Part shown: positions 12,229-30,782 of the stretch, piece by piece
Layout: the number at the start of each line of letters is the position of its first letter
Numbering within the stretch: position 1 is the first letter of the stretch
Assembly (NCBI RefSeq): GCF_007748115.1
Contig: NZ_CP036289.1
Location: forward strand, 1,116,001 to 1,180,000
Origin: Bremerella volcania
GTDB taxonomy: Bacteria > Planctomycetota > Planctomycetia > Pirellulales > Pirellulaceae
Direction: 5' to 3'
DNA: 64,000 bases
The notes under the pieces: generated by a model
The model's input: only the letters and a program-made list of their open reading frames with translations
Told to the model about the DNA's origin: nothing
Databases searched by the model: none
Translations under genes and position numbers: made by a program

Positions 12229-12452
12229 TATTCGCCCCCTTCCGATTCTTGCTGGGCTTCTTCAATCAGATCGGACGGCCAGGCAAAGATGGTGGCGAGA
12301 AACCACACGAGGCCTGCTCCGACCGAGATACCAGCTTGCCACAGGAGCGTGATCGGCATGAAGCCACCAACCAAGGTACGATCGTCCCAGTACCAAAGAT
12401 CTTGATGGAGGATGATGAGGGCTACGACCAGTAGCCATACCACGTATCTCAT
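12228..12452 (-). CDS. DUF3311-like small membrane protein, symporter partner
   Basis: A 74-residue protein starting MRYVVWLLVVALI, with two hydrophobic segments and a Trp/Asp-rich loop (HQDLWYWDD) between them. This is the usual form of DUF3311-type proteins encoded just before SSS permeases. An earlier in-frame start at 12518 is possible, but AAGG about 10 bases upstream of 12452 favours the shorter form. Its stop overlaps the permease start by one base. Confidence 0.72.
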   Translation of the reverse strand: MRYVVWLLVVALIILHQDLWYWDDRTLVGGFMPITLLWQAGISVGAGLVWFLATIFAWPSDLIEEAQQESEGGE

Positions 12453-12715
12453 GGGTATGCGGCCTTCATGGTGGAGTGGGGCGGGCAAAACACGTTGAGA
12501 AGACAGTTGGTTAAACAACTATCGGCACATTCTAAACGCCCCCGCAGCGCGATGCCAGACCGAGTTGGTCACTTTTCCTCGGAGTTCAGGCGGTTGGGGA
12601 AGATCGTTTTGCATTGGAGATTTACCGGGAAGGCTGGTAGACTGAAATGCGTCATCCGGCCCGATTCCCGCCCTGGGATGACGCTTCCTGCCACCTTCTC
12701 GCGTGAGATTTCTTC

Positions 12716-14107
12716 ATGACCCATTCCCTCTCTCGTCGTCAGATTCTTGCCGCTTCGGTCTCCAGTGTTCTTCTGCCAGCCGCTTTGCAAGGTGCCGATT
12801 CGGCCAGCGATTCGCCCAACCAGCTAACCGAGCCCCAACGAACCATTCCCGTAGCCGATACAACCGACGTATTGGTATGCGGCGGTGGACCGGCAGGCAT
12901 TGCCACGGCAATTAGTGCCGCACGAACTGGGGCCTCGGTGCGAATTCTGGAAGCTCACGGCTGCTTAGGGGGCGTTTGGACCAGCGGCATGCTCTCGTAT
13001 GTGATGGATGCCGAAAAGCCGGGGCTCAATGCCGAGCTACCTCGTCGACTCGAGCAGATGGACGCCGTTCGTCACAGCGGTCCGAAGAATTACATCTACG
13101 ACGTCGAAAGCATGAAGGTCCTATTGGAAGAGCTGTGTGACGAGAACGACATCAAAGTGCAGTACCACACGCGGATCGTGGCCGTCGAGAAAGATGCCGC
13201 CAACCGCGTGCGTGGCGTGATCACAGAATCGAAGTCGGGACGCCAGGCCTGGCGAGCCAACACGGTGGTCGATACGACCGGCGATGGGGACGTGGGGGCA
13301 TTGGCCGGCTGCAAGTGGGAGTTTGGCCGCGAAGAGGATTGCCCCTGTCAGCCAATGTCGTTGATGGGAATCATCACGGCGAGCCCGGAAGCGCTTCAGC
13401 AGTTCGATCGGTTGAAGGGTGGCCAGACGAAGGACGAATTTCGAGCATTCATTCAGACGGCAGGTATCGATCCGTCGTACGCCAAGCCAACGCTCTGGTA
13501 CATGGGTGGCAGTGTTGCCGCGGTGATGATGAATCACGAGTACGGCGTGCGTCCGTTCGACGCGGGGGCCGTGACCGAGGCGACCATTCGTGCCCGCCGC
13601 GAGTTGTACGACATTTGCCGCGGATTGAAGGGGCTAGGCGGAGCTTGGAGTGACTGCCGCCTGGTGACGACGGCCGAGCAAATCGGCGTTCGCGACGGAC
13701 GACGCATCAAGGGACGCTATTTCGTCACCGTGGATGACGTCCGCGAAGGGGCCCGGCATGAAGACGCCATCTGTCGCAGCGAGTTCAGCGTCGACATCCA
13801 CGCGGCGACGCGAGAGGAAAACAAGAAGGCAGCCTACAGCGGCCAAGGCGTTAAGGCCAAGCCGTTCGACATTCCGCTACGGGCGCTGATCGCGTCTGAT
13901 GTGGACGGTCTGATGATGGCAGGCCGCTGCATCAGCGGCGATTTCTTCGCCCATGCCAGCTACCGCGTGACTGGCAATGCCGTGGCAATGGGCGAGGCGG
14001 CCGGGGTGACTTCGGCGCTGGCGGCGAAAGAAGGCTGCTTGCCGCAGGACGTCGCTTGGAAACCTATTTCCAAGCAGTTGGCGGAATTGCGTAAGCCGGT
14101 GGCTTAA
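12716..14107 (+). CDS. Tat-exported FAD-dependent oxidoreductase
   Basis: The 463-residue protein begins with a twin-arginine-type signal (SRRQILAA, then a hydrophobic core and an Ala-rich cleavage region near residue 26). The FAD-binding Rossmann motif GGGPAGIATAISAARTG follows. The body fits the FAD_oxidored family (PF12831), which is abundant in planctomycetes. The substrate is unknown. Near the C terminus, MMAGRCISGDFFAHASYRVTGN is a second conserved FAD-contact region of this family. Its stop codon overlaps that of the converging gene at 14104-14649. Confidence 0.85.
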   Translation: MTHSLSRRQILAASVSSVLLPAALQGADSASDSPNQLTEPQRTIPVADTTDVLVCGGGPAGIATAISAARTGASVRILEAHGCLGGVWTSGMLSYVMDAEKPGLNAELPRRLEQMDAVRHSGPKNYIYDVESMKVLLEELCDENDIKVQYHTRIVAVEKDAANRVRGVITESKSGRQAWRANTVVDTTGDGDVGALAGCKWEFGREEDCPCQPMSLMGIITASPEALQQFDRLKGGQTKDEFRAFIQTAGIDPSYAKPTLWYMGGSVAAVMMNHEYGVRPFDAGAVTEATIRARRELYDICRGLKGLGGAWSDCRLVTTAEQIGVRDGRRIKGRYFVTVDDVREGARHEDAICRSEFSVDIHAATREENKKAAYSGQGVKAKPFDIPLRALIASDVDGLMMAGRCISGDFFAHASYRVTGNAVAMGEAAGVTSALAAKEGCLPQDVAWKPISKQLAELRKPVA

Positions 14108-14649
14108 TCGCGGGTTACGATTTCCAGCAGTTCGACGGCAGGTTCGCCATTGCAATAGATGAGAGCCGTACGTCCGTAGACCGTTTCGTTCGGCTCAAGT
14201 CCCATCAGCTCGCGAAGTTCGCGGGCCGGTTGAATGTGCCACAAGCACGTCAGTTGAACTTCCCGCAGAACGTTGTGCTCGATGAGGACTCTGCCCAGCG
14301 GAATGCGTTCGCTTTTGATTTCGTTGGCCGGCTCTTCGTCCAGGAAGTCGCAATTCAAACGGACGATTCCGTACTGCACGACCTTCCCGTCACTTTGCCG
14401 AGTCAACAGGATCTTACGCGAGTAATACTGCCCTTCGGTTCGCTTCTGGAGAACCTTCACGTCAACGCTACAGCCGTGGAACTTCTCGACGGTAACGGTC
14501 ATGTGCTCGTTGTGGGCGAGCAGTTGATGGAACGGCGCTGGAGTTTGCTGGGCCGAGACTTCTTCGAACTGTCCCAGTTCCTCGGGCTTGTCGTAAAAGA
14601 GGGCGATCAGCTGGCTAAGCTCAGGCATCGTATGGCGAGACGGTTTCAC
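14104..14649 (-). CDS. Chorismate-lyase/UTRA-fold-like protein
   Basis: A 181-residue soluble protein starting at the GTG at 14649, with AAGGA seven bases upstream. The C-terminal half has the order seen in chorismate lyase (UbiC) and UTRA domains: IPLGRVLIE, then a YGRTALIYCNGEPAVELLEIV stretch in which the Arg and the terminal Glu would line the ligand pocket. UbiC releases 4-hydroxybenzoate from chorismate for prenylation. The gene lies directly downstream of a polyprenyl synthase, which fits prenylated-aromatic chemistry. This is a fold-level guess by eye; catalytic identity is not shown. Confidence 0.45.
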   Translation of the reverse strand: MKPSRHTMPELSQLIALFYDKPEELGQFEEVSAQQTPAPFHQLLAHNEHMTVTVEKFHGCSVDVKVLQKRTEGQYYSRKILLTRQSDGKVVQYGIVRLNCDFLDEEPANEIKSERIPLGRVLIEHNVLREVQLTCLWHIQPARELRELMGLEPNETVYGRTALIYCNGEPAVELLEIVTRD

Positions 14650-14715: not shown

Positions 14716-16563
14716 CTATGAGGTGGGCGCGGCCAAGGGGAATTCGAGTTGGGTGGTTGGGATGACGATCGTCGGTTTGTGTTCTTCCGTCGTTTCCAAA
14801 ATCGAATCGACTAGATAATACAACAATCGTCGGAAGGGTTCAGGGTCGATTTCATCAGCGATTTCTTCCGCTTTTGCTCGATATTTTTCGACCAGCTGCT
14901 GTGCGTCGTCGAAAACGCCTCCTTCGAGGTAAAGGCTTCGTACGCGCTGAATCTTCGCTGCGGCGGTCAAATCGGGATCATTCGCAATTCGGATGAGTTC
15001 GTTCTTGCGATCTTCCTTCAGGTTTTGCAAGGCCAGCGCCCACAGCACCGTCGGACGACCGCCGATGATGTCGTTTCCGGCGGAAAGTTTGTTATCCGAA
15101 TCGCCGAGCCAGTCCTTCAGGTCGTTCAAGATCTGGAAAGCGACGCCGACATGCCGGGCAAACTTTCGCATTTGGTCGCGATAGTCTTCCCTCGTTTTGG
15201 CCAAGGCAATCCCGCAGTGCAGGGCAGCCTCGAACGCTGGGGAGGTTTTCAACGCGTAAATTTTCAACGCGTCGATCGGAGTCAACTCTTTGCTGGCCGA
15301 ATCGCGCCACATCAACTCGGCCCCTTGACCTTCCGACAGACGCATGTGGGCTTCGGCCAATTGATCGAGAATCTTGGCGACCACTTCAGCACCAAGCGTC
15401 TTTACCTCGCGGCTGACCAATCGGTAGCCGAGCCCGATCATGTAGTCGCCCAGGTTGATCCCGGTCGAAATGCCGAACTGACGATGGACGGTCGGTTCGC
15501 CGTAGCGGAACTCGTCGTCGTCTTCAATGTCGTCGTGCACGAGTGACGCTTTATGGAACGTTTCAATGGCGAGCGCACTTCGCTTGACCGCGTCGTTATA
15601 GCCGGCCACGTGGGCGGCACCATCGGGGAGCGTTCCCTGGCCACCGGTGAGTGAATCGTAAACGGCGAGCGTCGTGAACGGACGCGAGTACTTTCCGCCA
15701 CGGCCGATGAAGTCGATGGCCAGACGTTCGGTTGCCGCGATGGGATCGAGGTTGGGTAGATCGCGCAGCTCGGCGCTGAGTGTCTCGGCCGTTTGTCGCT
15801 GCGGGGCGATCAGGCGGGTCAGCTCTTGGCGATCGAACATCTCCTGAGCGGCACGCATCAGGTGGACGTAGGTTGCGGTCTTCTGCTGCGGTTCGCGATG
15901 AGGAAGGTGGATCATGTCGAAGACCCACTGTTCGTCGACCGACGTGTTTCGGCAGTCGCTCGAATGCAGCGGCACGGCCATGCAAGGAATGCCGGCGAGC
16001 AGGATCTTATCGAACGCCTTTTCCAGTACGTTCAAGCAGGCAACGCCCACGACCGCATCGACGTATCCGCTCACCAGAATCTTCATCACGATCGGCGACC
16101 CCTCAGCGACCAGGACCCGGTAGCCGAGTTCTTCGGCTTGGGTGCGATAGTCGGCGATGCTGCATGCTCCGCAGGTTTTGCAGTCGAGGCCGAACTGATC
16201 GTAGTCGGCCGGGCAGCCTTCAGCATGCTTCAGGCAGTGCGGCAACAGGAAGAGGCGTCGCTCGGGTGGAATGGCCGAGACCTGATCGCGCCAAAAAGCG
16301 GAGGTCATCATCACCAGGGTCCAGCCGACGTACGCCTCAGGCAGGTTCATGTCGTCGAGTAGAGCACGGGTGATTTTCTCCATTTCGTCTTTGGAGAGAG
16401 GACGCGACTTGTCGAGCTTCTCGCAGATCTGATAACAACGATCCCGAATCTCTTCGCGCAGGGCCAAGCGATCAGGGACTTGCTTCAGGTGGGCAGTCTT
16501 GCGGCGGCGGGAAACCCGCTTCTTGGCACCACCGTTCGATTCAGGCTGGGAGGGGGAAGGCAT
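14716..16563 (-). CDS. DUF116 / polyprenyl diphosphate synthase fusion
   Basis: About 615 residues in two parts. Residues 100-220 match DUF116 (PF01976): HC, GCPADYDQFGLDC, TCGAC and later single cysteines give eight Cys in the pattern of a metal or Fe-S site. From about 285 onwards is a trans-polyprenyl synthase: GGKYSRP, the first Asp-rich motif LVHDDIEDDDEFR, and a second region reading LNDLKDWLGD. The product would be an isoprenoid chain such as farnesyl or geranylgeranyl diphosphate. The second motif lacks the full DDxxD. The start is the ATG at 16563, 12 bases after the cyclase stop, so the two genes are probably one transcript. Confidence 0.85.
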   Translation of the reverse strand: MPSPSQPESNGGAKKRVSRRRKTAHLKQVPDRLALREEIRDRCYQICEKLDKSRPLSKDEMEKITRALLDDMNLPEAYVGWTLVMMTSAFWRDQVSAIPPERRLFLLPHCLKHAEGCPADYDQFGLDCKTCGACSIADYRTQAEELGYRVLVAEGSPIVMKILVSGYVDAVVGVACLNVLEKAFDKILLAGIPCMAVPLHSSDCRNTSVDEQWVFDMIHLPHREPQQKTATYVHLMRAAQEMFDRQELTRLIAPQRQTAETLSAELRDLPNLDPIAATERLAIDFIGRGGKYSRPFTTLAVYDSLTGGQGTLPDGAAHVAGYNDAVKRSALAIETFHKASLVHDDIEDDDEFRYGEPTVHRQFGISTGINLGDYMIGLGYRLVSREVKTLGAEVVAKILDQLAEAHMRLSEGQGAELMWRDSASKELTPIDALKIYALKTSPAFEAALHCGIALAKTREDYRDQMRKFARHVGVAFQILNDLKDWLGDSDNKLSAGNDIIGGRPTVLWALALQNLKEDRKNELIRIANDPDLTAAAKIQRVRSLYLEGGVFDDAQQLVEKYRAKAEEIADEIDPEPFRRLLYYLVDSILETTEEHKPTIVIPTTQLEFPLAAPTS

Positions 16564-16575
16564 AGGCAAGGTTGC

Positions 16576-18462
16576 TTAACTCGATTCTCTCGTTCCACTT
16601 CCGCTAAAGGCATCGCCGCGCTCATTGGCTTGTAGCGCCCGGCACACATGGGCCAGCGCACTGACCGTCATGATCCGCGGGTAGAGCTTTTCATAATACC
16701 ACAGCTTAGAGAAGTAAAAACCGATTGGCGAACATTCGATATGAGAATTTTCTTCGACCCGGCGGCATAACCAATCGATGGCTTTGTCCAGGCCTGGGTA
16801 GTTTTCTATGCCCTTATTGTCGCAGAGTAACCCCTCAATGGCCAGCGAAGTCTCCTCGACGCTGCTTTCATATCGTCCATTGGTGGCATCTTTCACGGCC
16901 TGACCGCCGCCGAAACCGCCGTCTTCATTCTGTTGATTCGCAAGCCAGGCGAGGGCTCTTGCGGGATACTTGGCGGGCTCGAAATCGGTGAAACCGAGTT
17001 CTTCTGGAGCGACTTCCCCAGAGGTGGGAAAGTAGACATCCCGGTAATAGTTCAAGACCTTTACGGTTCCATAGATTGGATTGTCTTCCTCGGGGCGATC
17101 TTGATTGCCAAACCAAAGGGGTAACCAGTGGTCGTTTTGCTGTTGGCTCAGAAAATAGAGCGGCCCGTAGCGGACGTTTCCCCGTTCCCACAATTCGCAG
17201 GAAAACCAGGCAAATAATCCTCGCAATGCGTGCGCCGTTATGTCGCATCCACTCCGATCAAAGGGTTGAGTTCCCCAGCCTCGACAGAACGTTGGCCAGC
17301 CATAATCTCGGTTCTGCAGGTCGACTAACCAGGTGCAACCGTTATCGGCCGCGGTTCGGATTCGCTCTTGTGTGGCCTGGTCGAAGTTGCCGCGATCGTA
17401 GAAGTATCGCAAGGCCAAAAGTGCCCCCGGCGTATCGTCTGCATCCGGCACACTACCACTTAAGTCCGTCCATCCCCAACCGCCAGGGGCTGCTCCGGTA
17501 AAGGGATGAATCTCCTTGGTTTGACAGTCCAACAGCCACTCCAGGCATTCCGGCGTGAGGTGCGAGTTGTCGTCTTCAAGCACCGAAAGCGCATTGATCG
17601 AAAGCGTGGTGACCCACGTTGCCAGGTTGGTATCGATGGGCCAGCTGCCGTCCGAGCGAACGCTCTCGCGGATGAACCGCAGGCCGTTCTGGGCGACCTG
17701 ACTGTTGGCCCTGCCGGTCGACGCCAGGCTCATTACGACAAAGCTTGTCAAAGGGATCGCTTCCAGGTAGCCGCCACTTTCCGGCTGCATCTTCGTGAGG
17801 ACATTGGCCGCGGAATTGAAGGTGGCACCGCGGATCATTCGCATGACCGGGTTCCATGGTTTGTCGTGGTAGTACTTCGCCTGGCCAATCGCGACAAGTG
17901 CCGGGATCGCATAGCTGACGACCGGCAGTTGAATGAACTTGTAAAACGACTGCGGCAGGACAGCTGCCTCGAAGGGAAGGGGAGCGACCTCTTTCCAAGA
18001 GACTAGTCCGGCGAGCGCGTAGTTCGTGAGGATCGGAACCGCAAACGTTTTGTCCTTGCCGTAACGAGCACGCAGTCCGTCGATTCCCCCTTTCTTTTTG
18101 ATGTAGTCATTTGCCGCCGACAGGACACTTGGGTTTTTCTCGGCATCGCCCGTGAGTGTCAAAGCCGCGACGGCTAGCATGGTGGTTGCGATGTTGGAGT
18201 AACTCAGTTCGGTATCGCCCCACCCACCGTCGGCGTTTTGATGATCGAGCAGATACTGGACACCCCCACGTATGAGCGACATATCGGCATCGCTGGATTG
18301 TGAGCCATTTCGCAAAGACAGTTGCAAAGCGCTGACGGCGGTGGCGGTCGATAAGGCCGACGTGGAAAGCTCGCCGATCCAGTGCCCGGATGGGTCTCGC
18401 TCGTTGAGGAGATCTTGTTTGGCGATTTCGTAACAGAAGCGAACTCGGGCAGGGTCGATCAT
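16576..18462 (-). CDS. Squalene-hopene-cyclase-like terpene cyclase (second copy)
   Basis: A 628-residue class II terpene cyclase homologue, close in length to bacterial SHC. The protonating motif is present as PDADDTPG (Asp near residues 340-343), and several QW repeats are visible (QNADGGWGD, QNRDYGWP, QNEDGGFGGG). It differs clearly from the other cyclase at 38276-40387. The start is the ATG at 18462, since the in-frame extension to 18525 reads as non-homologous sequence. It lies 12 bases upstream of the prenyl synthase fusion and is divergent from a radical SAM gene. It may cyclise squalene or another polyprenyl substrate; the product cannot be predicted. Confidence 0.82.
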   Translation of the reverse strand: MIDPARVRFCYEIAKQDLLNERDPSGHWIGELSTSALSTATAVSALQLSLRNGSQSSDADMSLIRGGVQYLLDHQNADGGWGDTELSYSNIATTMLAVAALTLTGDAEKNPSVLSAANDYIKKKGGIDGLRARYGKDKTFAVPILTNYALAGLVSWKEVAPLPFEAAVLPQSFYKFIQLPVVSYAIPALVAIGQAKYYHDKPWNPVMRMIRGATFNSAANVLTKMQPESGGYLEAIPLTSFVVMSLASTGRANSQVAQNGLRFIRESVRSDGSWPIDTNLATWVTTLSINALSVLEDDNSHLTPECLEWLLDCQTKEIHPFTGAAPGGWGWTDLSGSVPDADDTPGALLALRYFYDRGNFDQATQERIRTAADNGCTWLVDLQNRDYGWPTFCRGWGTQPFDRSGCDITAHALRGLFAWFSCELWERGNVRYGPLYFLSQQQNDHWLPLWFGNQDRPEEDNPIYGTVKVLNYYRDVYFPTSGEVAPEELGFTDFEPAKYPARALAWLANQQNEDGGFGGGQAVKDATNGRYESSVEETSLAIEGLLCDNKGIENYPGLDKAIDWLCRRVEENSHIECSPIGFYFSKLWYYEKLYPRIMTVSALAHVCRALQANERGDAFSGSGTRESS

Positions 18463-18625
18463 GCAGGCACAAACAGGCAGATGGGCAAGCGGACAAAGGT
18501 CCTTGCATCGTAAATGGCTTGGCAAAACGTGTCCATCGTCGGCGTGGTTTCCACTGACTTTTGCCGCCTATTGGGTTAGAATAAGTGGCTGCACGTCTCC
18601 CCCTCGATCCCTCCAAGGTATCTGC

Positions 18626-19930
18626 ATGTATTTCCGTCTGGCGAAACGCGCTCTTCTGGAAACGGACAAACGTCTCGTTGCCAAGTTCCTGTGGCTGATG
18701 GGCTATAAGGGGCTGCGCAGCGTTCAGAAGCACAAAGCTCGTCTTAAACGGGGTGAGTTCTTTCCGCCGTTTCTGTACATCTCGGTCATTAACAGCTGCA
18801 ACCTGCGTTGCCAGGGGTGCTGGGTCGACGTTTCGGCCAAGCAGTCGAAGCTCGATCTCGATGCGATGGATCGGATGCTGGGCGAAGCCAAAGCGATGGG
18901 GAACGCCTTTTTTGGAATCCTCGGCGGCGAACCGTTCATGCACGCCGACATCCTGGAGATCTTTCGCCGGCATCAAGACGCTTACTTCCAGGTCTTCACC
19001 AATGGGCACTTCATTACTGACGAAGTCGCCAAGGAACTACGCAAGCTGGGGAACGTTACCCCACTGATCAGCATCGAAGGGACCGAGATCATCAGTGACG
19101 TGCGTCGCGGTCGCGGCGGCGTGTACAGCAAGTCGATGGAAGGGATTCACAACTGCATCAACAACAAGCTGCTAACCGGCGTGTGCACCAGTTTGTGTCA
19201 GTCGAACTATGACGATCTGCTGCGAGAAGAGTGGATCGATCGGCTGATTGAGATGGGGGTGTTCTACTGTTGGTATCACGGCTACCGCGTGGTCGGGCCG
19301 GTGCCGAATCCCGATCTCGCGCTCACGCCAGAGCAGCAACTGGCAGTGCGGAAGTTCGTCGTCGAGATGCGCACGAAAAAGCCGATCGCCATCATCGACG
19401 CCTACCACGATGCCGACGGTAACGCACTCTGCCCGGCGGCGACCGGGTTCACGCATCACATCAGCCCCTATGGTGATATCGAGCCGTGCCCGGTGATTCA
19501 GTTCGCGAAGGAATCGATTCACGACGAACGTCCGCTGCGTCAGGTATTCAATGAGTCGGAGTACCTGCGTGACTTCCGCGAACTGGCCGCGAAGAACACC
19601 CGCGGCTGCATCATCCTGGAACGACCGGATCTGCTGGGGGACTTTGCCCGGGAGCATGAAGCGAAAGACACGACCGTGCGAGGCGAGGCGTATCAGGAAC
19701 TCGACGTGCTCAAGTCGAATCCCTCGCAATACAATCCGGGGAATGAAATTCCGGAGAAAAGCTGGGTCTACTGGTTGTTGAAGAAGTATGCGTTCCATGA
19801 CTATGGGGCATACAAGAAGAACTTCAATATCGAGAACTGGCAGCCGACGATTCATCAAGGAGGAACGTCCTCGACGGCAGCTCCTGATAACCTGGTTCAG
19901 CTGCAAGTCGATTCGTCCAGCAAGGCGTGA
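18626..19930 (+). CDS. Radical SAM protein with SPASM-like C-terminal region
   Basis: A 434-residue radical SAM enzyme. The iron-sulphur motif CNLRCQGC has cysteines at 58, 62 and 65, followed by FFGILGGEPFMH, the GGE motif that contacts SAM. A later Cys-containing region (ALCPAATGF, then IEPCPVIQF) resembles the SPASM/twitch auxiliary cluster. The ATG at 18626 follows AAGG at the right distance. Extending upstream to 18461 would overlap the cyclase gene. It is divergent from the second cyclase across 163 bases, so co-regulation in a terpenoid pathway is plausible. It is not HpnH, which is encoded at 37158-38279. Confidence 0.82.
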   Translation: MYFRLAKRALLETDKRLVAKFLWLMGYKGLRSVQKHKARLKRGEFFPPFLYISVINSCNLRCQGCWVDVSAKQSKLDLDAMDRMLGEAKAMGNAFFGILGGEPFMHADILEIFRRHQDAYFQVFTNGHFITDEVAKELRKLGNVTPLISIEGTEIISDVRRGRGGVYSKSMEGIHNCINNKLLTGVCTSLCQSNYDDLLREEWIDRLIEMGVFYCWYHGYRVVGPVPNPDLALTPEQQLAVRKFVVEMRTKKPIAIIDAYHDADGNALCPAATGFTHHISPYGDIEPCPVIQFAKESIHDERPLRQVFNESEYLRDFRELAAKNTRGCIILERPDLLGDFAREHEAKDTTVRGEAYQELDVLKSNPSQYNPGNEIPEKSWVYWLLKKYAFHDYGAYKKNFNIENWQPTIHQGGTSSTAAPDNLVQLQVDSSSKA

Positions 19931-19964: not shown

Positions 19965-20045
19965 AAAGCTGTTGTCTGGCCGGCAGGCTTAGCCAGTTGT
20001 TTTCAGCGATTGCCCCGACCTCTTCTCCAGCCTTCGGAAATCTTC

Positions 20046-22220: not shown

Positions 22221-22404
22221 GACGACTTCTCCCTGCCTTATGGGCTTCGACCGAGTCATTTGTGGTCGACGAATAGAAAAGTGAAGTAATAAGAACGGAA
22301 TTTCAGAGCGAGTATAGTCGAACCACTTTCGTGAGGCAAACTCATTTGGGGGGCTTGCACATACGGCGATCCCCAACCGAGCTAAGTGCCGGGACTGGTC
22401 TGCT

Positions 22405-23481
22405 TTAGATGTCCAAATCGTCGACTGCATCGATCAGGTCGTCGAGTTCGTCTTTGGCGCGGTCGTCTTTCTGGGCTTGACGTTTGGGTACGCCGACGGC
22501 TTCCCCGACCGCTTCACGGCCTGCCAATAGAAGCTGTTCGTCCCGTTCCCGAACCGCCGTATCGAGCGACTTTTCGTCTTCCTTGGGCTTACCGAACAGC
22601 TGCGAGAGATCGATCTTCAAGCCGCCGCCGGCCACCTCATCGCTGCCTGCGATCGTGGGCGTCTTGTGCTGTGGGAAGATGATCGCGTTTTCCGGACAGA
22701 CGCGGCTGCAAGCGGGGCACCCCTTGCGGCAATTGTCCGGCATTTCGACCAGAATGGTCTCGGCCCCGTCGACGCCGTACACACCGAACAGGCAGAAGTC
22801 GATGCACTCCATGCAGTTGGTGCATCGGCTGTAATCGATCACTGGGTACCAGCGGCGCGTGGCATCTTCTTCGATGCGGAAGGGCTCGATGACCGCCGGC
22901 TTTTCAAGCTCGCCACCTTCTTTCAAGGCAGTGTCGTTTGTCGGGTTGGCAACACGTTCCAGTTGTTGCGGCGTAGGAGAAGGAGCCGCACCGAGTCCAC
23001 CCAACTGAACGACCTGGGTCGAGATCTCCTTCTGAATGCGTTTGACCTCGTCCACGTAGTCTGCGACCTGGTTCGACACGCGGAGGTCGATGCAGTAGAT
23101 CAAGCGATTGGGAAGAGGGCGGTTCTCGATGACGCGCAGCTTGTCTTCGTCGGCCGGTTCGTCATCCAGTAAATCGTCTTCGTCTTCATCCGTTTCGTGA
23201 ACCAGCAAGGTCGTTCCTTCCTGGCCGCGGATGTTATTCCTGTCGAGCGTCCAGCGGGTAGCTCGTTCGTACAGCCACGAGATAACCACGAAGTCGGTCG
23301 TAATCGCTTGCAGGCCCATGATCCCAGGACCGTCGGCTTTCAGGTCGTATAAGTGGGGAACGATCGTGACCTCGATGCCAGGCTCGAACAGCAGCGACGC
23401 AACGATATCTTCTTCCAGCTTGCGTTTGGCTGGATTGTTGCTTTGGCCTTGGCTGACGACGACCGTCAAACGTTTGGGCAT
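22405..23481 (-). CDS. Ferredoxin-type protein with two 4Fe-4S motifs
   Basis: A 358-residue soluble protein. Residues 1-130 form an alpha/beta domain interrupted by a run of Asp/Glu (about 97-113). Two cluster motifs follow: CTNCMECIDFC (Cys 220, 223, 226, 230) and CRKGCPACSRVCP (Cys 251, 255, 258, 262). The C-terminal 80 residues are charged. It would carry electrons between partners. It is the last gene of a tight leftward triad, starting 4 bases after the GcvH-like gene, so it probably serves the radical SAM enzyme or the lipoyl carrier. I do not recognise the N-terminal domain. Confidence 0.8.
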   Translation of the reverse strand: MPKRLTVVVSQGQSNNPAKRKLEEDIVASLLFEPGIEVTIVPHLYDLKADGPGIMGLQAITTDFVVISWLYERATRWTLDRNNIRGQEGTTLLVHETDEDEDDLLDDEPADEDKLRVIENRPLPNRLIYCIDLRVSNQVADYVDEVKRIQKEISTQVVQLGGLGAAPSPTPQQLERVANPTNDTALKEGGELEKPAVIEPFRIEEDATRRWYPVIDYSRCTNCMECIDFCLFGVYGVDGAETILVEMPDNCRKGCPACSRVCPENAIIFPQHKTPTIAGSDEVAGGGLKIDLSQLFGKPKEDEKSLDTAVRERDEQLLLAGREAVGEAVGVPKRQAQKDDRAKDELDDLIDAVDDLDI

Positions 23482-23485
23482 GGAG

Positions 23486-23941
23486 TTACTCGTTCAGTTG
23501 TCCCTTGATGGTCCGCTGGGTGATTTCCCAGACCGACGCAAGGTGCTCGATATATTGGTGCGGGTCGAGCAGCGTTTCGCCGCTGCCGTTAATTTCGTAG
23601 AGCCATCCTTCTCCGTACATATCGACGTTAATCCTCGAAGGGTCGCTCATCAACTCGGGGTTCAACCGCGCCAGAACACCGGGAATGGGGGGATAGAGTT
23701 CGCTTTCAGCTTTGCTGCTTTCAATAAAGCCGATCTCTTGACCTTCGACAATTTTAGCACCTTCGTCAACCTGCCACTCCAGGAAATAGACATCCTGGAG
23801 CAGACGCACCGCGTAAGCAGAAAACCCGAATCGGTAGGCATCTCCGCTTCGGGTCGCCCAGCAGTGGTTTTTGGCGTATTGCCGGTCGGTGGGGAAGCGG
23901 GCCTCGAATTTCCCCATCATGAAGACCAACTCGTCGCTCAT
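23486..23941 (-). CDS. GcvH-like lipoyl carrier protein
   Basis: A 151-residue protein with the biotinyl/lipoyl fold of the glycine cleavage H protein. GFIESSKAESELYPPIPG surrounds the candidate lipoyl Lys77 with the usual E-x-x-K spacing and the following PxxG. No gcvT or gcvP is present in the window, and the sequence around the carrier Lys differs from housekeeping GcvH, so it may be a dedicated carrier (LbpA-like proteins are a known precedent). Its ATG overlaps the stop of the radical SAM gene by one base (TAATG), implying coupled translation. Confidence 0.82.
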   Translation of the reverse strand: MSDELVFMMGKFEARFPTDRQYAKNHCWATRSGDAYRFGFSAYAVRLLQDVYFLEWQVDEGAKIVEGQEIGFIESSKAESELYPPIPGVLARLNPELMSDPSRINVDMYGEGWLYEINGSGETLLDPHQYIEHLASVWEITQRTIKGQLNE

Positions 23942-25251
23942 TAGGTGTACCGCACTCCCTGGAACTGCGGTTCAAAGAACGGCGGCAGCAGGCCATCGGC
24001 CCGCAGCAAACCGTCCCGAGTCAGTTCGATGCGATCTCCGTTGATCGTGACGAAGCCTTCTTCTTGGTACTGTTTCCAGATATCGGACCATTTCTCGAGG
24101 ATCTCGACTCCAAACTTCTGGCGGAAGTAGTCGGCATCGAGGTAACCCCGCTTGAGCAGCAAGATCGTTTCCCGGATGAGTAGTTGTTCCGGCGTCGGAC
24201 GATAGGCTCGCTTGAGGGGGAGTTCTCCCTTGTCGAGCAGCGTGCCGGTGTAGTCGGCCCACTCGGTCTTGTTCTGGTAGTGAATGCCGCTGATATGACC
24301 AAAGCTCGCCACGCCGGTGGCCAGAAGATCACTGCCGCCGAACAGGTTGTCGCGGTAACTGAAATTCACTTTGCTGGGGTCTTTGACCATCGTGTAGGCG
24401 CTGCTGACGCTGTAGCCCGCTTTGGCCAGTTCATCGAACGCATAGCTGACCCAGGCTCGCTTCATAGGCCAGTCGGCAACCGGCGTTTCGATCTTGTTCC
24501 CCAGGATGTCCTGCGAGTAGACCGTATTAAACGGCAACTCCATCTGGTAGATGGTCACGCTCTCAGGCGAGAACTCGAGGACCTTCCTGATGTTCTCTTT
24601 CCACGTGTCCCACGTCTCGCCGACCATACCGGCGATCAGGTCGATATTCACGTTGGGAAACTTGGCGGCCTCGATCCATTCCCAAGCGGTGTAAACCTCC
24701 TTGGAAAGGTGAGCCCGGCCGTTCTCTTCCAGGATGTGGTCGAAGAAGTTCTCGACGCCCAGGCTCAGCCGGGTAACGCCCATGTCACGCAGGGCTTTCA
24801 CCTTCGATTCGCGAAGGGTGCCAGGCTCGCACTCGAAGGTCACTTCTTCGGCCTGATCCCAACTGATGCTCGTACGCAGGCGGTCTTCCAGGCGCTTTAG
24901 TTGTTTCGGGCTCAGGAACGACGGGGTACCACCGCCAAAGTAAACAAAGCGGAACGGTCGCCCTCCCATTGCTTCGGTCTGGCTGACCAGTTCGATTTCC
25001 TTTACCAAGGCCGAAACGTACGTTTCGACTTCCTGGGCGTTCTTGTCGGTGTAGACGCGGAAGTAACAGAACTTGCAGCGCTTGCGGCAAAAAGGGACAT
25101 GCAAATACAAACCCAGCGGCACGCCTTCGCGCGGAGGGGAATGCATCGCCGTGTTGAGGTCGTCGGCGTACGCTTCGCTCCACTGCGAGAACGGCGGGTA
25201 GTTGGAAATGAAGTAACTACCGACTTCGGTCTTGGTGGAATCGGTGGCCAT
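23941..25251 (-). CDS. HemN/HemW-like radical SAM enzyme
   Basis: A 436-residue radical SAM protein of the coproporphyrinogen-oxidase-like group: YLHVPFCRKRCKFCYF gives the Cys55-x3-Cys59-x2-Cys62 cluster site, and FVYFGGGTPSFL is the SAM-binding GGGTP. A C-terminal HemN-like helical domain follows. Family members include oxygen-independent HemN, the haem chaperone HemW, methyltransferases and cyclopropanases, and the sequence alone does not decide. Housekeeping HemN usually has a fourth nearby Cys (CxxCxC), which is absent here. It is the first gene of a triad with a GcvH-like carrier and a ferredoxin, so it may act on a carrier-bound substrate. Confidence 0.82.
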   Translation of the reverse strand: MATDSTKTEVGSYFISNYPPFSQWSEAYADDLNTAMHSPPREGVPLGLYLHVPFCRKRCKFCYFRVYTDKNAQEVETYVSALVKEIELVSQTEAMGGRPFRFVYFGGGTPSFLSPKQLKRLEDRLRTSISWDQAEEVTFECEPGTLRESKVKALRDMGVTRLSLGVENFFDHILEENGRAHLSKEVYTAWEWIEAAKFPNVNIDLIAGMVGETWDTWKENIRKVLEFSPESVTIYQMELPFNTVYSQDILGNKIETPVADWPMKRAWVSYAFDELAKAGYSVSSAYTMVKDPSKVNFSYRDNLFGGSDLLATGVASFGHISGIHYQNKTEWADYTGTLLDKGELPLKRAYRPTPEQLLIRETILLLKRGYLDADYFRQKFGVEILEKWSDIWKQYQEEGFVTINGDRIELTRDGLLRADGLLPPFFEPQFQGVRYT

Positions 25252-25449: not shown

Positions 25450-26574
25450 TTATTTCTTCTCGGCGAAGCAGTACAACACGCCTCGCTCGGTGGCAATCAG
25501 CAGGCAGCCGTTCGAGACGGCCGGGCCAGCGGGGAAACCGCTCTTGGCCTCAAATTGCCAAACTTCCTTGCCGGTACTCAGGTCGACAGCACGAACGCGA
25601 CTGTCGGCGGAACCAAAGTAAACGCGAGTGCCAGCTACGATCGGTGAACTATTGATTTTGCCTCGGGCTTTAAAGGTCCATTGTTCTTTTCCCGTTGCAA
25701 GATCCAGTGAAACGAGGTTCTTGCTGAACGAACCGAACAACACCCGATCGGGAAGCACCGCGGCACTCGCGCGAATCTGCTGTCGGTTGCGCTCGTCTTG
25801 ATACTGCCAGACGACCTTCAGGTCTTTCCAGTTGATGGCGAAAAACGATCCGGCTTCCGTACCGAAGTACGCCACATCGTCACGCACCGCAGGGGCTGAA
25901 CCGGTTGGGCCGTCGATTGGTACCGTGCCGATTGGTTCCCCCTTGTCCAGGTCAATCACGTGCAGCTTGCTGTCGCAACCGGCGACGAATCCACGATTGG
26001 AAACGACCGTCGGCATGCAGCGGATTTGATCGTCGATCTCCACTTTCCAGACCAGCTTGCCATCCTCTTTGTCCAGGCAATAGAGGTGAGCGTCTTGCGA
26101 TCCGATCAAAATTTTATCTTGGTAGAAGTTGACGCTGCCGTTGATTTCCAGGCCGGCTTCAAACTTCCAGATGAGCTTACCGTCTTCCGCATTCAGGCAG
26201 TGCAGCACGCCGTCGATGTCACCGACGTAGATTCGCCCTTCGCGATAGGCAGGCGAACCCATGAACCCAGAAAGCTGATCGACGTTCCCTTCGTAGGTCC
26301 AAACCTTCGAGCCATCTTCGAGCTTCACGGCGTAGACGCGCCCGTCGAGGTCGCCGATGTAGACGATCCCATCCACGACGATCGGGGTTGCCTCGAAGGC
26401 GCCGTTCTCGATTTCAAGCTTCCATCGGACGTCCAGGTTGTCCGAAAGAGTCTCGTCGGAAACACCTTGAGCGAGGGCGTTACCACGATACAGGGGCCAG
26501 TCCGCGCGCAGCTGAGCGACGGCTGCGATTGCGAAAAGGATCGCGGTCAGAGGGATCGTCAGTTTCGATTTCAT
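25450..26574 (-). CDS. Exported PQQ-type beta-propeller (outer-membrane BamB-like) protein
   Basis: A 374-residue protein with a signal peptide (MKSKLTIPLTAILFAIA, cleavage near ADW). It consists of repeated propeller blades of the WKxE / AVDLxTGKEVWxF type, for example VYAVKLEDGSKVWTYEG, YCLDKEDGKLVWK and VRAVDLSTGKEVWQF. Such propellers bind PQQ in dehydrogenases or act as scaffolds such as BamB. The short length and lack of a cytochrome domain suggest a scaffold or a PQQ-like reader. The ATG at 26574 starts the signal peptide, and the upstream frame is non-homologous. It lies 83 bases downstream of the alcohol dehydrogenase. Confidence 0.85.
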   Translation of the reverse strand: MKSKLTIPLTAILFAIAAVAQLRADWPLYRGNALAQGVSDETLSDNLDVRWKLEIENGAFEATPIVVDGIVYIGDLDGRVYAVKLEDGSKVWTYEGNVDQLSGFMGSPAYREGRIYVGDIDGVLHCLNAEDGKLIWKFEAGLEINGSVNFYQDKILIGSQDAHLYCLDKEDGKLVWKVEIDDQIRCMPTVVSNRGFVAGCDSKLHVIDLDKGEPIGTVPIDGPTGSAPAVRDDVAYFGTEAGSFFAINWKDLKVVWQYQDERNRQQIRASAAVLPDRVLFGSFSKNLVSLDLATGKEQWTFKARGKINSSPIVAGTRVYFGSADSRVRAVDLSTGKEVWQFEAKSGFPAGPAVSNGCLLIATERGVLYCFAEKK

Positions 26575-26657
26575 GGCGGAATCCTTGAAAAAGGGGCCGT
26601 TGGAACGAAGTCCCTTCATTTTACTCCAAGGCCAGGGCCAAGGCACATCGCAGGCAG

Positions 26658-27812
26658 TTACTGCATGGCCGATCGGTAAAGCTTCGAGAATTCGCCGGCA
26701 TCAACATCTCGAGGATTAAAGTTCCCGGTCCATTGCTTGGCCGCGTCGGCGGAAAGGGTCTCGAGCTTTTCACCGTTGATCGACAGTTGATTCAAGTTGG
26801 TCGCAAGCCCCGCCGTATCGACCCAGCTTTGCACCAGGTTGGCTAATCCCTCGGCGCCTTGTTCTGGTTGGGGATAGTTGGGCAAATCGACCGGGATCAT
26901 AAGCAAGTCTTGGTAAAGCTCGTTAAATGCTTTGCCGTTGTAGCGAATCACCGACGGAAGCATCACACCTACGGCCTGGCCATGCACCACGCCGTAGTGA
27001 GCCGTCAAAGGATTGGCCAACGCGTGCGCGGCGCCGAGCATCGAATTCTCAATGGCTAATCCGGCGAAGCAGGCACCCAATTGCATCGCTCCGCGGGCCT
27101 CGACGTCTTCCGGGCTGGCGAGCACCTTGGTGAAGTTGCCTGCCAGCAGACGCCACGCTTCACGGCTGAAGCTCAGGCTCACTTCGTTACGCTTCTTCGT
27201 GACGAACGTTTCCAACGCATGACTGATCGCGTCGATACCGGTCAGGGCCGTAACCTTTTGCGGCTGGGTTACGGTTAGCTTGGGATCGAGCAGGGCAATA
27301 CGGCAGGCCGCTTTCTTATCACCGCAGGCCATTTTGACGTGCGTTTCGGCGTCGGTGATCAAGGCGAACGATTGGGCTTCGCTTCCTGTTCCGGCTGTGG
27401 TCGGAACGGCGATCATCGGAAGCATCTCCTGGGTTGCCTTGCCGACGCCCCAATAGTCCTTCATTTCACCGCCGTTGGTTAGCAGGAAATTGATCCCCTT
27501 GGCACAGTCCATCGCGCTGCCGCCACCCAGACCGACGATCAACTCAGGCTCGTGCTGCTTTGCGAACTCAACGCCATGGGCGACGTTGACGGTCGAGGGG
27601 TTCTCTTGCACGCCGTCGAACAGAAAAGCCTGGACGCCGGCCGATTCCAGACAATCGATTCCCCGCTGGGTATGACCAGCTTTAATAACTCCAGGATCGC
27701 TGACCAGCAGCGCTCGCTTCGCGCCGAGCTCTAAGGCTAGTTCGCCGAGCCGCTGAAGGCTATCCGGACCAAACACAATCCGTGTGCGTGGCTGGAAGTC
27801 GAATGGAATCAT
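26658..27812 (-). CDS. Iron-containing (group III) alcohol dehydrogenase
   Basis: A 384-residue member of the Fe-ADH family. The NAD-binding motif GGGSAMDCAKG and the metal-ligand region (AISHALETF, GAAHALANPLTAHYGVVHGQA) with its conserved His residues are intact. It interconverts alcohols and aldehydes. The start is the ATG at 27812 (MIPFDFQPRTRI). The longer frame runs through a repeat element. It follows a LuxC-like acyl reductase in the same direction, and together they could take an activated acyl group to an alcohol. Confidence 0.9.
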   Translation of the reverse strand: MIPFDFQPRTRIVFGPDSLQRLGELALELGAKRALLVSDPGVIKAGHTQRGIDCLESAGVQAFLFDGVQENPSTVNVAHGVEFAKQHEPELIVGLGGGSAMDCAKGINFLLTNGGEMKDYWGVGKATQEMLPMIAVPTTAGTGSEAQSFALITDAETHVKMACGDKKAACRIALLDPKLTVTQPQKVTALTGIDAISHALETFVTKKRNEVSLSFSREAWRLLAGNFTKVLASPEDVEARGAMQLGACFAGLAIENSMLGAAHALANPLTAHYGVVHGQAVGVMLPSVIRYNGKAFNELYQDLLMIPVDLPNYPQPEQGAEGLANLVQSWVDTAGLATNLNQLSINGEKLETLSADAAKQWTGNFNPRDVDAGEFSKLYRSAMQ

Positions 27813-27837
27813 GCCTCGGGATCCTGTTTCATTCCGG

Positions 27838-27939
27838 TTCCCTTGCCACCGTCTGCCGGGGAAAGGGTTGGGGTGAGGGGCAAACGGTGTACCCGCATCG
27901 CCCCTCACCCTAGCCCTCTCCCCAAAGGGGCGAGGGGAC
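27838..27939. repeat. REP-like palindromic intergenic element (copy 2)
   Basis: Inverted GGTTGGGGTGAGGG and CCCTCACCCTAGCCCTC arms, ending in a GGGGCGAGGGGAC edge, match the element at 25335-25443. It fills most of the 155-base gap between the acyl reductase and alcohol dehydrogenase genes. Confidence 0.85.
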
Positions 27940-27967
27940 TTGAGCAAGAGGCAAGCTCTGTTGAATA

Positions 27968-29410
27968 CTACGAAGCCGCGACCTGAACCGGAGCCGATTG
28001 ATAGGCTCGGCTGCGGAAGAGGAACTCGATGATGTTCCCTTCGTGCGGCTGCAGCCAATCAACCTTGTGCGTCGGAATCGGACCGATGTTCAAGCGGTCG
28101 ATGTGCGTCGCGTTAACTAGTTGGCGAGCAAACTCCTCGTTGCCAGTGATGGCCGTGCAAATCAGTGAGTAACCGATCTTCTGGATCATCTCTTCCTGAG
28201 GGCACTCGACCACGGAGACGAACGGGAACATGTACTCTTTGCTGGCGACTTGTTTCTCTGGATTCTCCGCGTGAACGACCATCGGCTTGAGATAGTCGCA
28301 GCGTTCCATCTGAACCAGGCGATCGCCGTACGATGCGGTGTAGTCGGTTACGCCATCTTCGGCCAGGTCGGACTCAATCATGCCCCATACCGCCGGAGCC
28401 ATGCCAGGCATGGTGAACGCTGCCAGTGCGGCCTGGTCGTCGGTTGGGTCTTTAATCTCGGTCGGGCCGATCTTCTCAGCAATCGCTTGAGCGATTTCCC
28501 TGGTGTGACGCGAAGCCCAAATGCCTGAGGCATTGATGCAGCTTCGTCCGCTGTTGGCGAAAACGCTTTGTACCATCAGGTCCAAGTACTGCGGCCAATC
28601 GTCAACCACGTCATCGGCCAGCAGGATCTTGCTGAAGCCTGGGCCGTGCGGCTGAACCTTGGGGTTACCGGCGTACTGATCGATCGTCTGCTGGCCGCCG
28701 AAGACCATCGCTCGATCGACTGACGAGAGCAGCGAAGCACCCACGTCGCCACCGGCACCGGGATACAAGCTGAATGCTTCGGCAGGCAAGCCTGCTTCGA
28801 CCATGGCAGAGAAAATCCGGTACGGCGTCCATGGCTCCTTTCCACCTGGCTTGAGTACCAGACCAAGTTGAAGCGCGACGGCCGGAAGCCACAGGGTATG
28901 CACCCCGGGTGAATTGGAAGGCAACACGGCGCCGAGTACCGGACTTTGAACTTGATAGCTGAGCATGACGTCGCGGCCGGGTTCTTTCCCGTAGCCACGA
29001 GCCAGGATGTTGAGATCGAGCCCGCGGGTGAGCGAGTCGAGAATTTTAGGCATGTTCTGCAGCACGAAGGCATTCTTCTGCATGTTCGAGCGGCACATGT
29101 GTTCTGGCAGGCCGGTCGTGGCGCTTTGAGCATGCACAAATGCTTCAGGCGTCTGCGAACCATCACCGATGGGCAGATCGGCTTCCAAGTAAAGCTTGCC
29201 GGCGACAGCCAGCTTCTCCAGAATCTCTTCCGGGCTGAATTGCAGAAGAGCATCGCGAGCGGACTGGGCTTTACGCATGTCTCGCTTGAGGATGCCCCCA
29301 CCGACCTGGCTCAGCTGTGCGATGGGCTCGCCGGTACGGAAGTGGACGACGTCTTCTTTTTCGAGCGAGTCGTAGGGCTTGCCCCAACGGATAGCAGGAA
29401 TGTTCAGCAT
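27968..29410 (-). CDS. LuxC-like acyl reductase (aldehyde dehydrogenase superfamily)
   Basis: A 480-residue ALDH-superfamily protein. The catalytic Cys is near residue 291 in ANSGRSCINASG. The upstream nucleotide-binding stretch reads AVLPSNSPGVHTLWLP, then LKPGGKEPWTPYR. The order and spacing resemble acyl-CoA/acyl-protein reductases of the LuxC group rather than aldehyde oxidisers. It would reduce an acyl thioester to aldehyde. The next upstream gene is a LuxE-like acyl-protein synthetase and the next downstream an Fe-ADH. The chain length of the substrate is unknown. Confidence 0.78.
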   Translation of the reverse strand: MLNIPAIRWGKPYDSLEKEDVVHFRTGEPIAQLSQVGGGILKRDMRKAQSARDALLQFSPEEILEKLAVAGKLYLEADLPIGDGSQTPEAFVHAQSATTGLPEHMCRSNMQKNAFVLQNMPKILDSLTRGLDLNILARGYGKEPGRDVMLSYQVQSPVLGAVLPSNSPGVHTLWLPAVALQLGLVLKPGGKEPWTPYRIFSAMVEAGLPAEAFSLYPGAGGDVGASLLSSVDRAMVFGGQQTIDQYAGNPKVQPHGPGFSKILLADDVVDDWPQYLDLMVQSVFANSGRSCINASGIWASRHTREIAQAIAEKIGPTEIKDPTDDQAALAAFTMPGMAPAVWGMIESDLAEDGVTDYTASYGDRLVQMERCDYLKPMVVHAENPEKQVASKEYMFPFVSVVECPQEEMIQKIGYSLICTAITGNEEFARQLVNATHIDRLNIGPIPTHKVDWLQPHEGNIIEFLFRSRAYQSAPVQVAAS

Positions 29411-29654: not shown

Positions 29655-30782
29655 TTAGTACACACCAACGGTGGTGCTGCTGGCGAAGCCGTGGAATGGT
29701 CGTACGCCGCTGACGCCTTCCCACGGGTAGGTGAGATAAGGCATCTCGCGTTCCCCTTCGTCTCGTTCCAGGAAACCGGGGACGAAGAACTCTTTGGTCA
29801 GCGTCGTCAGTTTGACGCGACCTGTCTCGCCGTAAGGAACGGACTGGTAGGGGTCGTCGAACGAAACGACTTCCGTTACGGCCCGCGGCTGCGGAGCGTA
29901 GTACGAGATCTTATAGCCATCTTCGGGCGTGACCGGCTTGCTGCATGCCAGACCCATCAGCGTGTTGCCGTAGGTGGGGGTCATGTAGATGCCGCTTTCT
30001 TCCGGACCACCACCGAAGAGTTCTTCGATGCAGTAGCGGGTCCACTGTGGCGTAAACTCGGTACCGCCGCTGAAGATGCCGGTGATGCCGACGTCGGCCA
30101 GGGTGGTGCCTTTGTCTTCGAGGCCCAGGCACAGCGATTCGATCAGCTTGGGAGTGCCAAACATGCACTTCACGTCGTGACCGGCGGTGAGGACCGTGAT
30201 CGCCTGATCGATGCAGTGTTTCTTGTACGCTTCCAGTTCGTCCATCTTGCCGCGCTTGATGAGCTTGACCACCCAGCGTGGATCCAAGTCGATGCAGAAG
30301 CTAATGCCGCCGCGTACCTGGGCTAGGTGTTCGACCGCCAGACGCAAGCGACGCGGGCCGGAAGGGCCAAGCATCAACCAGTTCGAGCCTTTAGGAAAAT
30401 ACTTGTCTGGCAGCGTTTCGCTGAAGAGGGAATAGTCGGTGCGGAAGTCGTCGATGGCGATCCGGCTCTTGGGGATGCCAGTGGTGCCGCCGGTTTCGAA
30501 AACGTAGATCGGCTTGTCGGCATAGGCCTGGGGAACCCAGCGACGAACCGGACCACCGCGAAGCCATTCGTCCTCGAACAGTGGGAACTTCTTCAGGTCG
30601 TCGTAACCTTTCACTTCGGTCAGCGGATCGAAGTTGAACTCTTTCTTCTTTTCGAGCCAGAACGGGCAACCGGTCGACTCGTGAAAATGCCACTGGACGA
30701 TCTCGTAGGTGTGAGCGTCGAGCTTGTCCTTGGCGGACTTGACCGCCGCTTCAACTTCTGGGGTTAGCGTGTCGCTTGCCAT
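29655..30782 (-). CDS. LuxE/PaaK-like acyl-protein synthetase or acyl-CoA ligase
   Basis: A 375-residue member of the adenylate-forming superfamily, shorter than full ANL ligases and in the size range of LuxE. The ATP-binding P-loop-like motif is FETGGTTGIPKSR. Downstream, IFSGGTEFTPQWTR and TYGNTLMG occupy the positions of later adenylation motifs. It would activate a carboxylic acid as acyl-AMP and pass it to a thiol, probably for the LuxC-like reductase. In LuxE the acceptor is the enzyme's own Cys, and I cannot assign that residue confidently here. It is the first gene of the leftward 22-31 kb series. Confidence 0.75.
   Translation of the reverse strand: MASDTLTPEVEAAVKSAKDKLDAHTYEIVQWHFHESTGCPFWLEKKKEFNFDPLTEVKGYDDLKKFPLFEDEWLRGGPVRRWVPQAYADKPIYVFETGGTTGIPKSRIAIDDFRTDYSLFSETLPDKYFPKGSNWLMLGPSGPRRLRLAVEHLAQVRGGISFCIDLDPRWVVKLIKRGKMDELEAYKKHCIDQAITVLTAGHDVKCMFGTPKLIESLCLGLEDKGTTLADVGITGIFSGGTEFTPQWTRYCIEELFGGGPEESGIYMTPTYGNTLMGLACSKPVTPEDGYKISYYAPQPRAVTEVVSFDDPYQSVPYGETGRVKLTTLTKEFFVPGFLERDEGEREMPYLTYPWEGVSGVRPFHGFASSTTVGVY

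Follow-up and report, generated by a model that had tools for sequence, protein, structure and literature searches.

We studied three adjacent genes in a 64,000-nucleotide stretch of the Bremerella volcania genome (NZ_CP036289.1, positions 1,116,001 to 1,180,000), hereafter called the window. The genes encode a HemN-like radical S-adenosylmethionine (SAM) enzyme, an H-type lipoyl carrier protein and a 2[4Fe-4S]-type ferredoxin, and we refer to them together as the trio. The trio is the seam between two recurring gene sets, which we call clusters A and B. Planctomycetes are known as a phylum for unusual lipids, and we give even credence to the reading that the trio is the radical, carrier and electron module of a larger planctomycete pathway leading to a cyclised, modified terpenoid-type lipid. 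This reading is based on gene order, co-occurrence, sequence motifs and a carrier clade that stands apart from GcvH.

The initial annotation had described three open reading frames (ORFs) with a 1-base overlap and a 4-base gap, and this layout was borne out on the minus strand: the last base of the TAA stop codon of the HemN-like gene is the first base of the carrier ATG, and the carrier stop codon is followed by CTCC and then by the ferredoxin ATG. Family matches and motifs likewise agreed with its naming of a HemN-like radical SAM enzyme, a lipoyl-type Lys and a two-cluster ferredoxin. The ferredoxin shares 69% identity with its relative in Blastopirellula marina and 58% with that in Adhaeretor mobilis; B. 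marina DSM 3645 (locus L103) is a cultured relative that has the trio. Scans of the sequence for promoters and terminators gave counts not above those for shuffled sequence.

The three genes were sought in a class sample of 59 genomes with chosen E limits of 1e-15 for the ferredoxin, 1e-80 for the HemN-like enzyme and 1e-25 for the carrier, the last of which could miss distant carriers of other classes. The carrier was found in 38 genomes, the HemN-like ortholog in 43 (in six genomes of family f80 its match reaches no further than roughly residue 250 of the 436) and the ferredoxin in 41. All 38 carrier genomes also have the HemN-like enzyme and the ferredoxin, so that the earlier claim that the three genes go together held. 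The carrier and the HemN-like enzyme occur together in 38 genomes, the carrier alone in none, the HemN-like enzyme alone in 5 and neither in 16 (Fisher test, 1.9e-10); for carrier and ferredoxin the corresponding numbers are 38, 0, 3 and 18. By family, the carrier is present in 10/10 genomes of f1, 13/14 of f2 and 12/13 of f80, and in 0/14 of f79, which has none of the three genes.

Conservation as a unit was seen in co-occurrence and only in part in contiguity. The trio is contiguous, with steps of less than 4 kb, in 19 of the 38 carrier genomes (families f1, f78 and f80), and the carrier is linked with the HemN-like gene only, the ferredoxin gene lying elsewhere, in 4. In 32 of the 38 the carrier gene adjoins the ferredoxin gene, and in 13 of these the HemN-like gene is not alongside. 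This linkage pattern therefore makes the carrier the hinge of the trio.

We further inspected 80 ferredoxin loci, which are the best 80 of 477 confirmed relatives of the ferredoxin and therefore lean to close kin; 15 of them offer less than 3 kb of sequence upstream of that gene. The gene order HemN-like enzyme, carrier, ferredoxin was found at 43 of these loci, and at 36 of the 65 whose upstream sequence reaches 3 kb or more, while tblastn detected the carrier at 62/80. With start codons set by a simple rule, the HemN-like and carrier genes overlap or are separated by 20 bases or fewer at 29 of 42 measurable trio loci, and the carrier and ferredoxin genes at 13 of 43. Motifs were counted at the 40 of 43 trio loci kept after a length filter. 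Across 40 trio loci the distances between homologs rise and fall together for the three proteins (pairwise distances, r 0.72-0.82), a correlation for which common descent alone would suffice. The trio first seemed rare because of a phylum sample of 149 genomes, a picture changed by the class sample and the 80 loci. Counted by hand from listings with cuts at 65 and 439 bits, the phylum sample has the ferredoxin type in 37 genomes, the HemN-like ortholog in 31 and both in 24, compared with 7.7 expected by chance; the trio is contiguous in only 3 of these 24.

The carrier matches the Pfam family GCV_H above the cut-off (E 1.2e-19) and shares with GcvH the lipoyl site, a Lys in an E-x-x-K-A context (Glu74-x-x-Lys77-Ala in the window) present in 24/24 carriers and at 40/40 trio loci. 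It differs from GcvH in scoring below the cut-offs of the NCBIfam gcvH models (TIGR00527, 76.4 bits against 115.85; NF002270, 86.7 against 117) and in its phylogenetic position. A tree with rows from Planctomycetota only and no LbpA, for which 2 of 20 GcvH regions had no usable row, split 24 carriers from 18 GcvH proteins with support of 100/98. Within the phylum the carriers form a clade of their own beside GcvH, and the grouping inside housekeeping GcvH that the initial annotation had named as a refutation was not seen. A second gcvH lies in the same 6.50 Mb genome at C1:1333169-1333537, about 190 kb from the trio, with two gcvP-type frames and an LplA/LipB-family gene after it; the genome-wide search for glycine-cleavage genes was limited to gcvH and gcvP. 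lipA was located elsewhere in the genome, adjoining another LplA/LipB-family gene, and three genes of this family lie outside the trio, one of them within the gcv operon. The remark that gcvP and lipA are not near the trio was thus correct. Identity as the housekeeping GcvH was rejected in view of the tree and of gcvH and gcvP lying apart from the trio.

Among dedicated GcvH-like carriers, LbpA is the closest precedent. LbpA is a GcvH-like lipoyl protein of the sHdr sulphur-oxidation system encoded in a dedicated gene cluster (PMC6067878), a setting that the carrier resembles. Most LbpA proteins are described there as having a pair of strictly conserved Cys, one towards each end of the chain (PMC6067878), whereas both are missing from the carrier and no Cys position is common to the 24 carriers. 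No sHdr genes were found among the window proteins scanned for families. The CCG domain (PF02754), the only sHdr marker sought, occurs in two frames of the genome, both outside the window: one of 278 amino acids, LutA-like by eye and adjoining a LutB-like frame, and one of 1012 amino acids. LbpA identity was disfavoured by the two-Cys test and by this one marker domain being found only in other contexts.

The HemN-like enzyme matches the Pfam family Radical_SAM (E 1.1e-21). It belongs to a common superfamily with HemN, HemW, ChuW/HutW and the STM4012 family, yet it falls below every cut-off. Its best NCBIfam matches are STM4012 (187 bits, cut-off 380) and HutW (187 bits, cut-off 400), and it reaches neither the HemN equivalog model (174.1 bits, cut-off 324.95) nor that of HemW (163.7 bits, cut-off 205.4). 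On these scores a HemN or HemW of the haem pathway was rejected. Profile searches against the PDB ranked E. coli HemN first (195 bits) and the class C methylase NocN second (129 bits); the alignment to HemN is full-length and that to NocN covers the radical SAM part alone. The radical SAM motif formed by C55, C59 and C62 is invariant in the 17 of 29 rows that were aligned, and is present at 40/40 trio loci.

NocN is described as holding its second SAM (SAM-II) by Tyr34, Tyr96, Arg153, Asp196 and Ser225 (PMC12871812). Residues Y49, Y104, R161, D204 and T233 of the HemN-like enzyme align with these positions in sequence and are invariant in the 17 rows, T233 standing at the position of NocN Ser225. 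E. coli HemN has a His at the position of NocN Tyr96 (our Tyr104) and the same residue types at the other SAM-II positions. The alignment favours, short of proof, two-SAM chemistry in the HemN-like enzyme, leaning towards class C. The enzyme shares with the class C methylases (NosN/NocN, TbtI and C10P) the CxxxCxxC motif, the stacking Tyr for SAM-II and the NocN-type residues of the methionine pocket. It differs from them in its higher score to E. coli HemN, and no lipoyl-type carrier is mentioned for them in the available parts of the sources.

The ferredoxin matches Fer4_7 and related dicluster models at residues 208-270. Its 8-Cys pattern, C-x2-C-x2-C-x3-C and C-x3-C-x2-C-x3-C, is present in 30/30 ferredoxin rows longer than 210 amino acids and at 40/40 trio loci that passed the length filter. 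An extra N-terminal domain, absent from the initial annotation, is predicted to have a flavodoxin-like or Rossmann-type fold and has only weak matches in the PDB; the model of the whole ferredoxin (mean predicted local distance difference test score 64) is poor except in this domain and in some stretches of the core. The domain seems to be related to f20, a stand-alone protein with four invariant Cys in 9 rows from other planctomycetes; the window domain has no Cys at these four positions. A possible origin of the N-terminal domain and f20 from HdrA was examined by a PDB sequence search of f20 and a fold search of both models: HdrA was not among the rows shown, and the domain gave weak flavodoxin-, Rossmann- or unrelated matches only.

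The gene neighborhoods were compared across the phylum at 20 loci each for the ferredoxin/carrier and for the HemN-like enzyme, drawn from the 37 genomes with this ferredoxin type and the 31 with the HemN-like ortholog. Genes were called at these loci by a custom rule, and family clustering merged the ferredoxin with f20, a flavin adenine dinucleotide (FAD) enzyme with the conserved protein f11, and ATP-binding cassette (ABC) with GT4 proteins. Cluster A is made up of the carrier, the ferredoxin (whole or split), a CobW GTPase, a second radical SAM protein, a fusion of DUF116 with a polyprenyl synthase, and a toroid cyclase-type protein or two; some loci add an Aminotran_5/cysteine-desulfurase-like protein. 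Cluster B comprises the HemN-like enzyme with varying sets of a pyrroloquinoline quinone (PQQ)-like propeller, an iron-containing alcohol dehydrogenase (Fe-ADH), an aldehyde dehydrogenase (ALDH), an adenosine monophosphate (AMP)-forming ligase and f11, together with a FAD enzyme of the halogenase/geranylgeranyl-reductase type, a thioesterase, a PaaK-type ligase, a glycosyltransferase, an ABC/FtsX exporter and a symporter. The DUF116-prenyl synthase was found at 17, a cyclase at 15, CobW at 14 and the second radical SAM protein at 13 of the 20 ferredoxin/carrier loci; the HemN-like loci have Fe-ADH at 15, the PQQ-like protein at 12, ALDH at 10 and the AMP ligase at 9.

Clusters A and B are fused in long rows at L102, L117, L126, L132 and L178, the last from a Gemmata metagenome-assembled genome in whose row a second radical SAM gene was not detected, and cluster B genes border cluster A at L055 and L092 too. 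The window holds members of both clusters between positions 10201 and 30782. The initial annotation had seen in the trio a minimal stand-alone machine, a view that was not supported: the trio is where a terpenoid-type and an acid-activation/reduction cluster meet, and in the f2 genomes mentioned below its HemN-like gene lies elsewhere. The DxDD motif is present in 23/23 cyclases, the window cyclase scoring below the NCBIfam cut-offs for squalene/hopene cyclases, and two Asp motifs are present in 26/27 prenyl synthases. The DUF116 part of the fusion has seven invariant Cys in 21 aligned rows; a search of the open-licence literature on DUF116, judged by title, gave nothing relevant. Among the loci compared, L096 (G133:C21) carries a distant paralog of the HemN-like enzyme, not an ortholog. 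Two genomes have a second, more distant HemN-like paralog, at L097 (9324-10685) and L098 (9018-10367), with 41 and 43% identity and without most of cluster B; the gene next to the L097 copy clustered with the FAD enzyme/f11 proteins.

In the pathway that we propose, the prenyl synthase would make a polyprenyl diphosphate and the DxDD cyclase would close its rings. The AMP ligase may activate an acid function, which ALDH and Fe-ADH would then reduce. Ordinary cellular lipoyl enzymes would lipoylate the H-type protein at Lys77, and the lipoylated carrier could then present a thiol-bound substrate, or its own dithiol, to the HemN-like enzyme. The tight coupling between the HemN-like and carrier genes suggests that a substrate, or a dithiol that the enzyme requires, is presented on the lipoyl arm. 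The HemN-like enzyme might use two SAM to place a one-carbon unit on an sp2 carbon or to modify it in another way, with the ferredoxin as the presumed electron donor both when SAM is cleaved and when the dithiol is reset. A flavoenzyme, a glycosyltransferase and an ABC exporter, whose genes occur at other loci and not in the window, would finish and move the product.

Several observations weigh against the trio being a module of such a pathway. The co-occurrence counts follow family lines and are uncorrected for kinship. The HemN-like gene lies away from the carrier-ferredoxin pair in 13 of the 38 carrier genomes, all of family f2, and all three genes are apart in 2. No carrier was found by tblastn at 18 of the 80 best ferredoxin loci, and none was called at 9 (L082-L090, several of them on short contigs) of 14 further loci of the ferredoxin type (L082-L095); two of these, L085 and L086, have the prenyl synthase and cyclase. 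Genomes G079 and G065 (89 and 84% complete) have cluster A with the carrier and no HemN-like ortholog. The HemN_C match of the HemN-like enzyme is below threshold (22.3 bits, cut-off 24), and we count this against the reading as well. No relatives of the CobW, toroid, desulfurase-like, FAD enzyme or thioesterase families, nor of the PaaK, glycosyltransferase, ABC or FtsX families, were found in the window; CobW, which alone of the families absent from the window was sought genome-wide, has a relative elsewhere in the genome.

Within the proposed pathway, the role that we infer for the lipoyl arm is that of a substrate tether or of an electron or sulphur relay. Tentatively, the H-type protein may be dedicated to carrying substrate in a terpenoid lipid pathway driven by radical SAM chemistry; intermediates would be held as thioesters or thioethers on its dithiol arm and move between the HemN-like enzyme, as inserter of a one-carbon unit, the other radical SAM enzyme and the enzymes that reduce the acid. 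A doubtful alternative is that the dithiol/disulfide of the carrier relays electrons instead of tethering substrate, linking the ferredoxin and its flavodoxin-like domain with the radical SAM enzymes or with another reductive step. The frequent pairing of carrier and ferredoxin genes, also where the HemN-like gene is not alongside, is what an electron relay would predict, and the four invariant Cys of the f20 relatives fit it too. However, the tightest spacing is that between the HemN-like and carrier genes, these two stay together in four genomes whose ferredoxin gene lies elsewhere, and the window N-terminal domain lacks Cys at the f20 positions. We consider it improbable that a cysteine desulfurase loads the carrier with sulphur, which the radical SAM enzymes then insert into the terpenoid. 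A cysteine-desulfurase-like gene of the Aminotran_5 family accompanies cluster A at 6 loci, and GcvH-like LbpA carriers act in sulphur oxidation (PMC6067878); yet the desulfurase-like gene is missing from the window, only 4 of its 6 members have the expected Cys motif, and the carriers lack the two Cys that mark most LbpA.

Assembly or alteration of a lipoyl group on the carrier, by the HemN-like enzyme or the ferredoxin, is more improbable again, despite a known parallel: the radical SAM lipoyl synthase LipS1/LipS2 is found beside GcvH-like acceptors (PMC10332631). The trio resembles the LipS1/LipS2-sLpl(AB) arrangement in placing radical SAM proteins next to a GcvH-like acceptor and differs in that LipS proteins are lipoyl synthases, whereas lipA lies elsewhere in the genome here. 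The NCBIfam matches of the HemN-like enzyme belong to the HemN type, the matches listed for it and for the second radical SAM protein include no model of a lipoyl synthase, and the neighbors of the trio are terpenoid and acid-reduction genes. The initial annotation had offered the building of a lipoyl cofactor as an option; given lipA and three LplA/LipB-family genes elsewhere in the genome, this is unlikely, and lipoyl-cofactor assembly as a candidate function was disfavoured on the same grounds. Finally, the trio might be housekeeping spare parts, namely a second GcvH of glycine cleavage, a HemN/HemW-type enzyme and a ferredoxin that are neighbors by chance. The GCV_H match above the cut-off and E. 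coli HemN as the best match of solved structure would agree with this, but the separate clade, the scores below the NCBIfam gcvH, hemN and HemW cut-offs, the gcvH and gcvP genes elsewhere and the co-occurrence in all carrier genomes make it a disfavoured and very remote explanation.

The features of the window that belong to the trio and the two clusters are collected in the following table.

Table 1. Genes of the trio and neighboring cluster members in the window
Product	Coordinates	Strand	Cluster	Remarks
Sodium:solute symporter	10201..12228	-		recurs at some cluster B loci
DUF3311 small protein	12228..12518	-		adjoins symporter; recurs at some cluster B loci
f11, conserved 181-amino-acid protein	14104..14649	-		no Pfam or NCBIfam match; often near HemN-like gene
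DUF116 fused to polyprenyl diphosphate synthase	14716..16569	-	A	seven invariant Cys
Squalene-hopene-cyclase-like protein	16576..18525	-	A	DxDD motif
Second radical SAM protein	18461..19930	+	A	CNLRCQGC; NCBIfam matches shown below cut-off; conserved from about residue 56
2[4Fe-4S]-type ferredoxin with N-terminal flavodoxin-like/Rossmann-type domain	22405..23481	-		358 amino acids
H-type lipoyl carrier protein	23486..23941	-		151 amino acids; lipoyl-type Lys77 in E-S-S-K-A
HemN-like radical SAM enzyme	23941..25251	-		436 amino acids; C55-x3-C59-x2-C62
PQQ/BamB-like beta-propeller protein	25450..26646	-	B	
Iron-containing alcohol dehydrogenase	26658..28058	-	B	about 80 amino acids of non-conserved N-terminal extension in ORF
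Aldehyde dehydrogenase family	27968..29410	-	B	Cys in GRSCIN
AMP-forming-ligase-like protein	29655..30782	-	B	every family match below cut-off

Two further genes, at 20010-20936 and 20967-22430, lie between the ferredoxin gene and the remainder of cluster A. One has weak phosphatase-like and cytochrome c'-like matches below the cut-off, and the other encodes an aspartic protease of clan AA that carries an SHD1 domain. A role in anti-phage defence was considered and rejected: padloc gave zero matches for the trio proteins or the AMP ligase, and its sole match, a weak one (E 1.6e-4), was the neighboring aspartic protease. A GC-rich interspersed repeat with inverted arms has copies at 25335-25424 and 27837-27923, in gaps between cluster B genes, and a pair of inverted repeats, one nested in the other and with arm lengths of 27 and 31 nucleotides, lies at 29458-29635, between the ALDH and AMP ligase genes.

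A search of the open-licence literature, by titles and the starts of abstracts, found no description of the trio or of the clusters, in line with the earlier statement that no described pathway is known to have exactly these three components. The folds themselves are known; what is new here is probably that the carriers form a clade separate from GcvH and belong to a pathway not yet described. Few roles are known for free-standing lipoyl proteins. A distinct carrier clade in several planctomycete families, accompanied by a HemN-like enzyme and tied to terpene cyclisation genes, points to a pathway that has not been described, and if our reading is true, it would add a further metabolism for free-standing lipoyl carriers besides glycine cleavage and sulphur oxidation.

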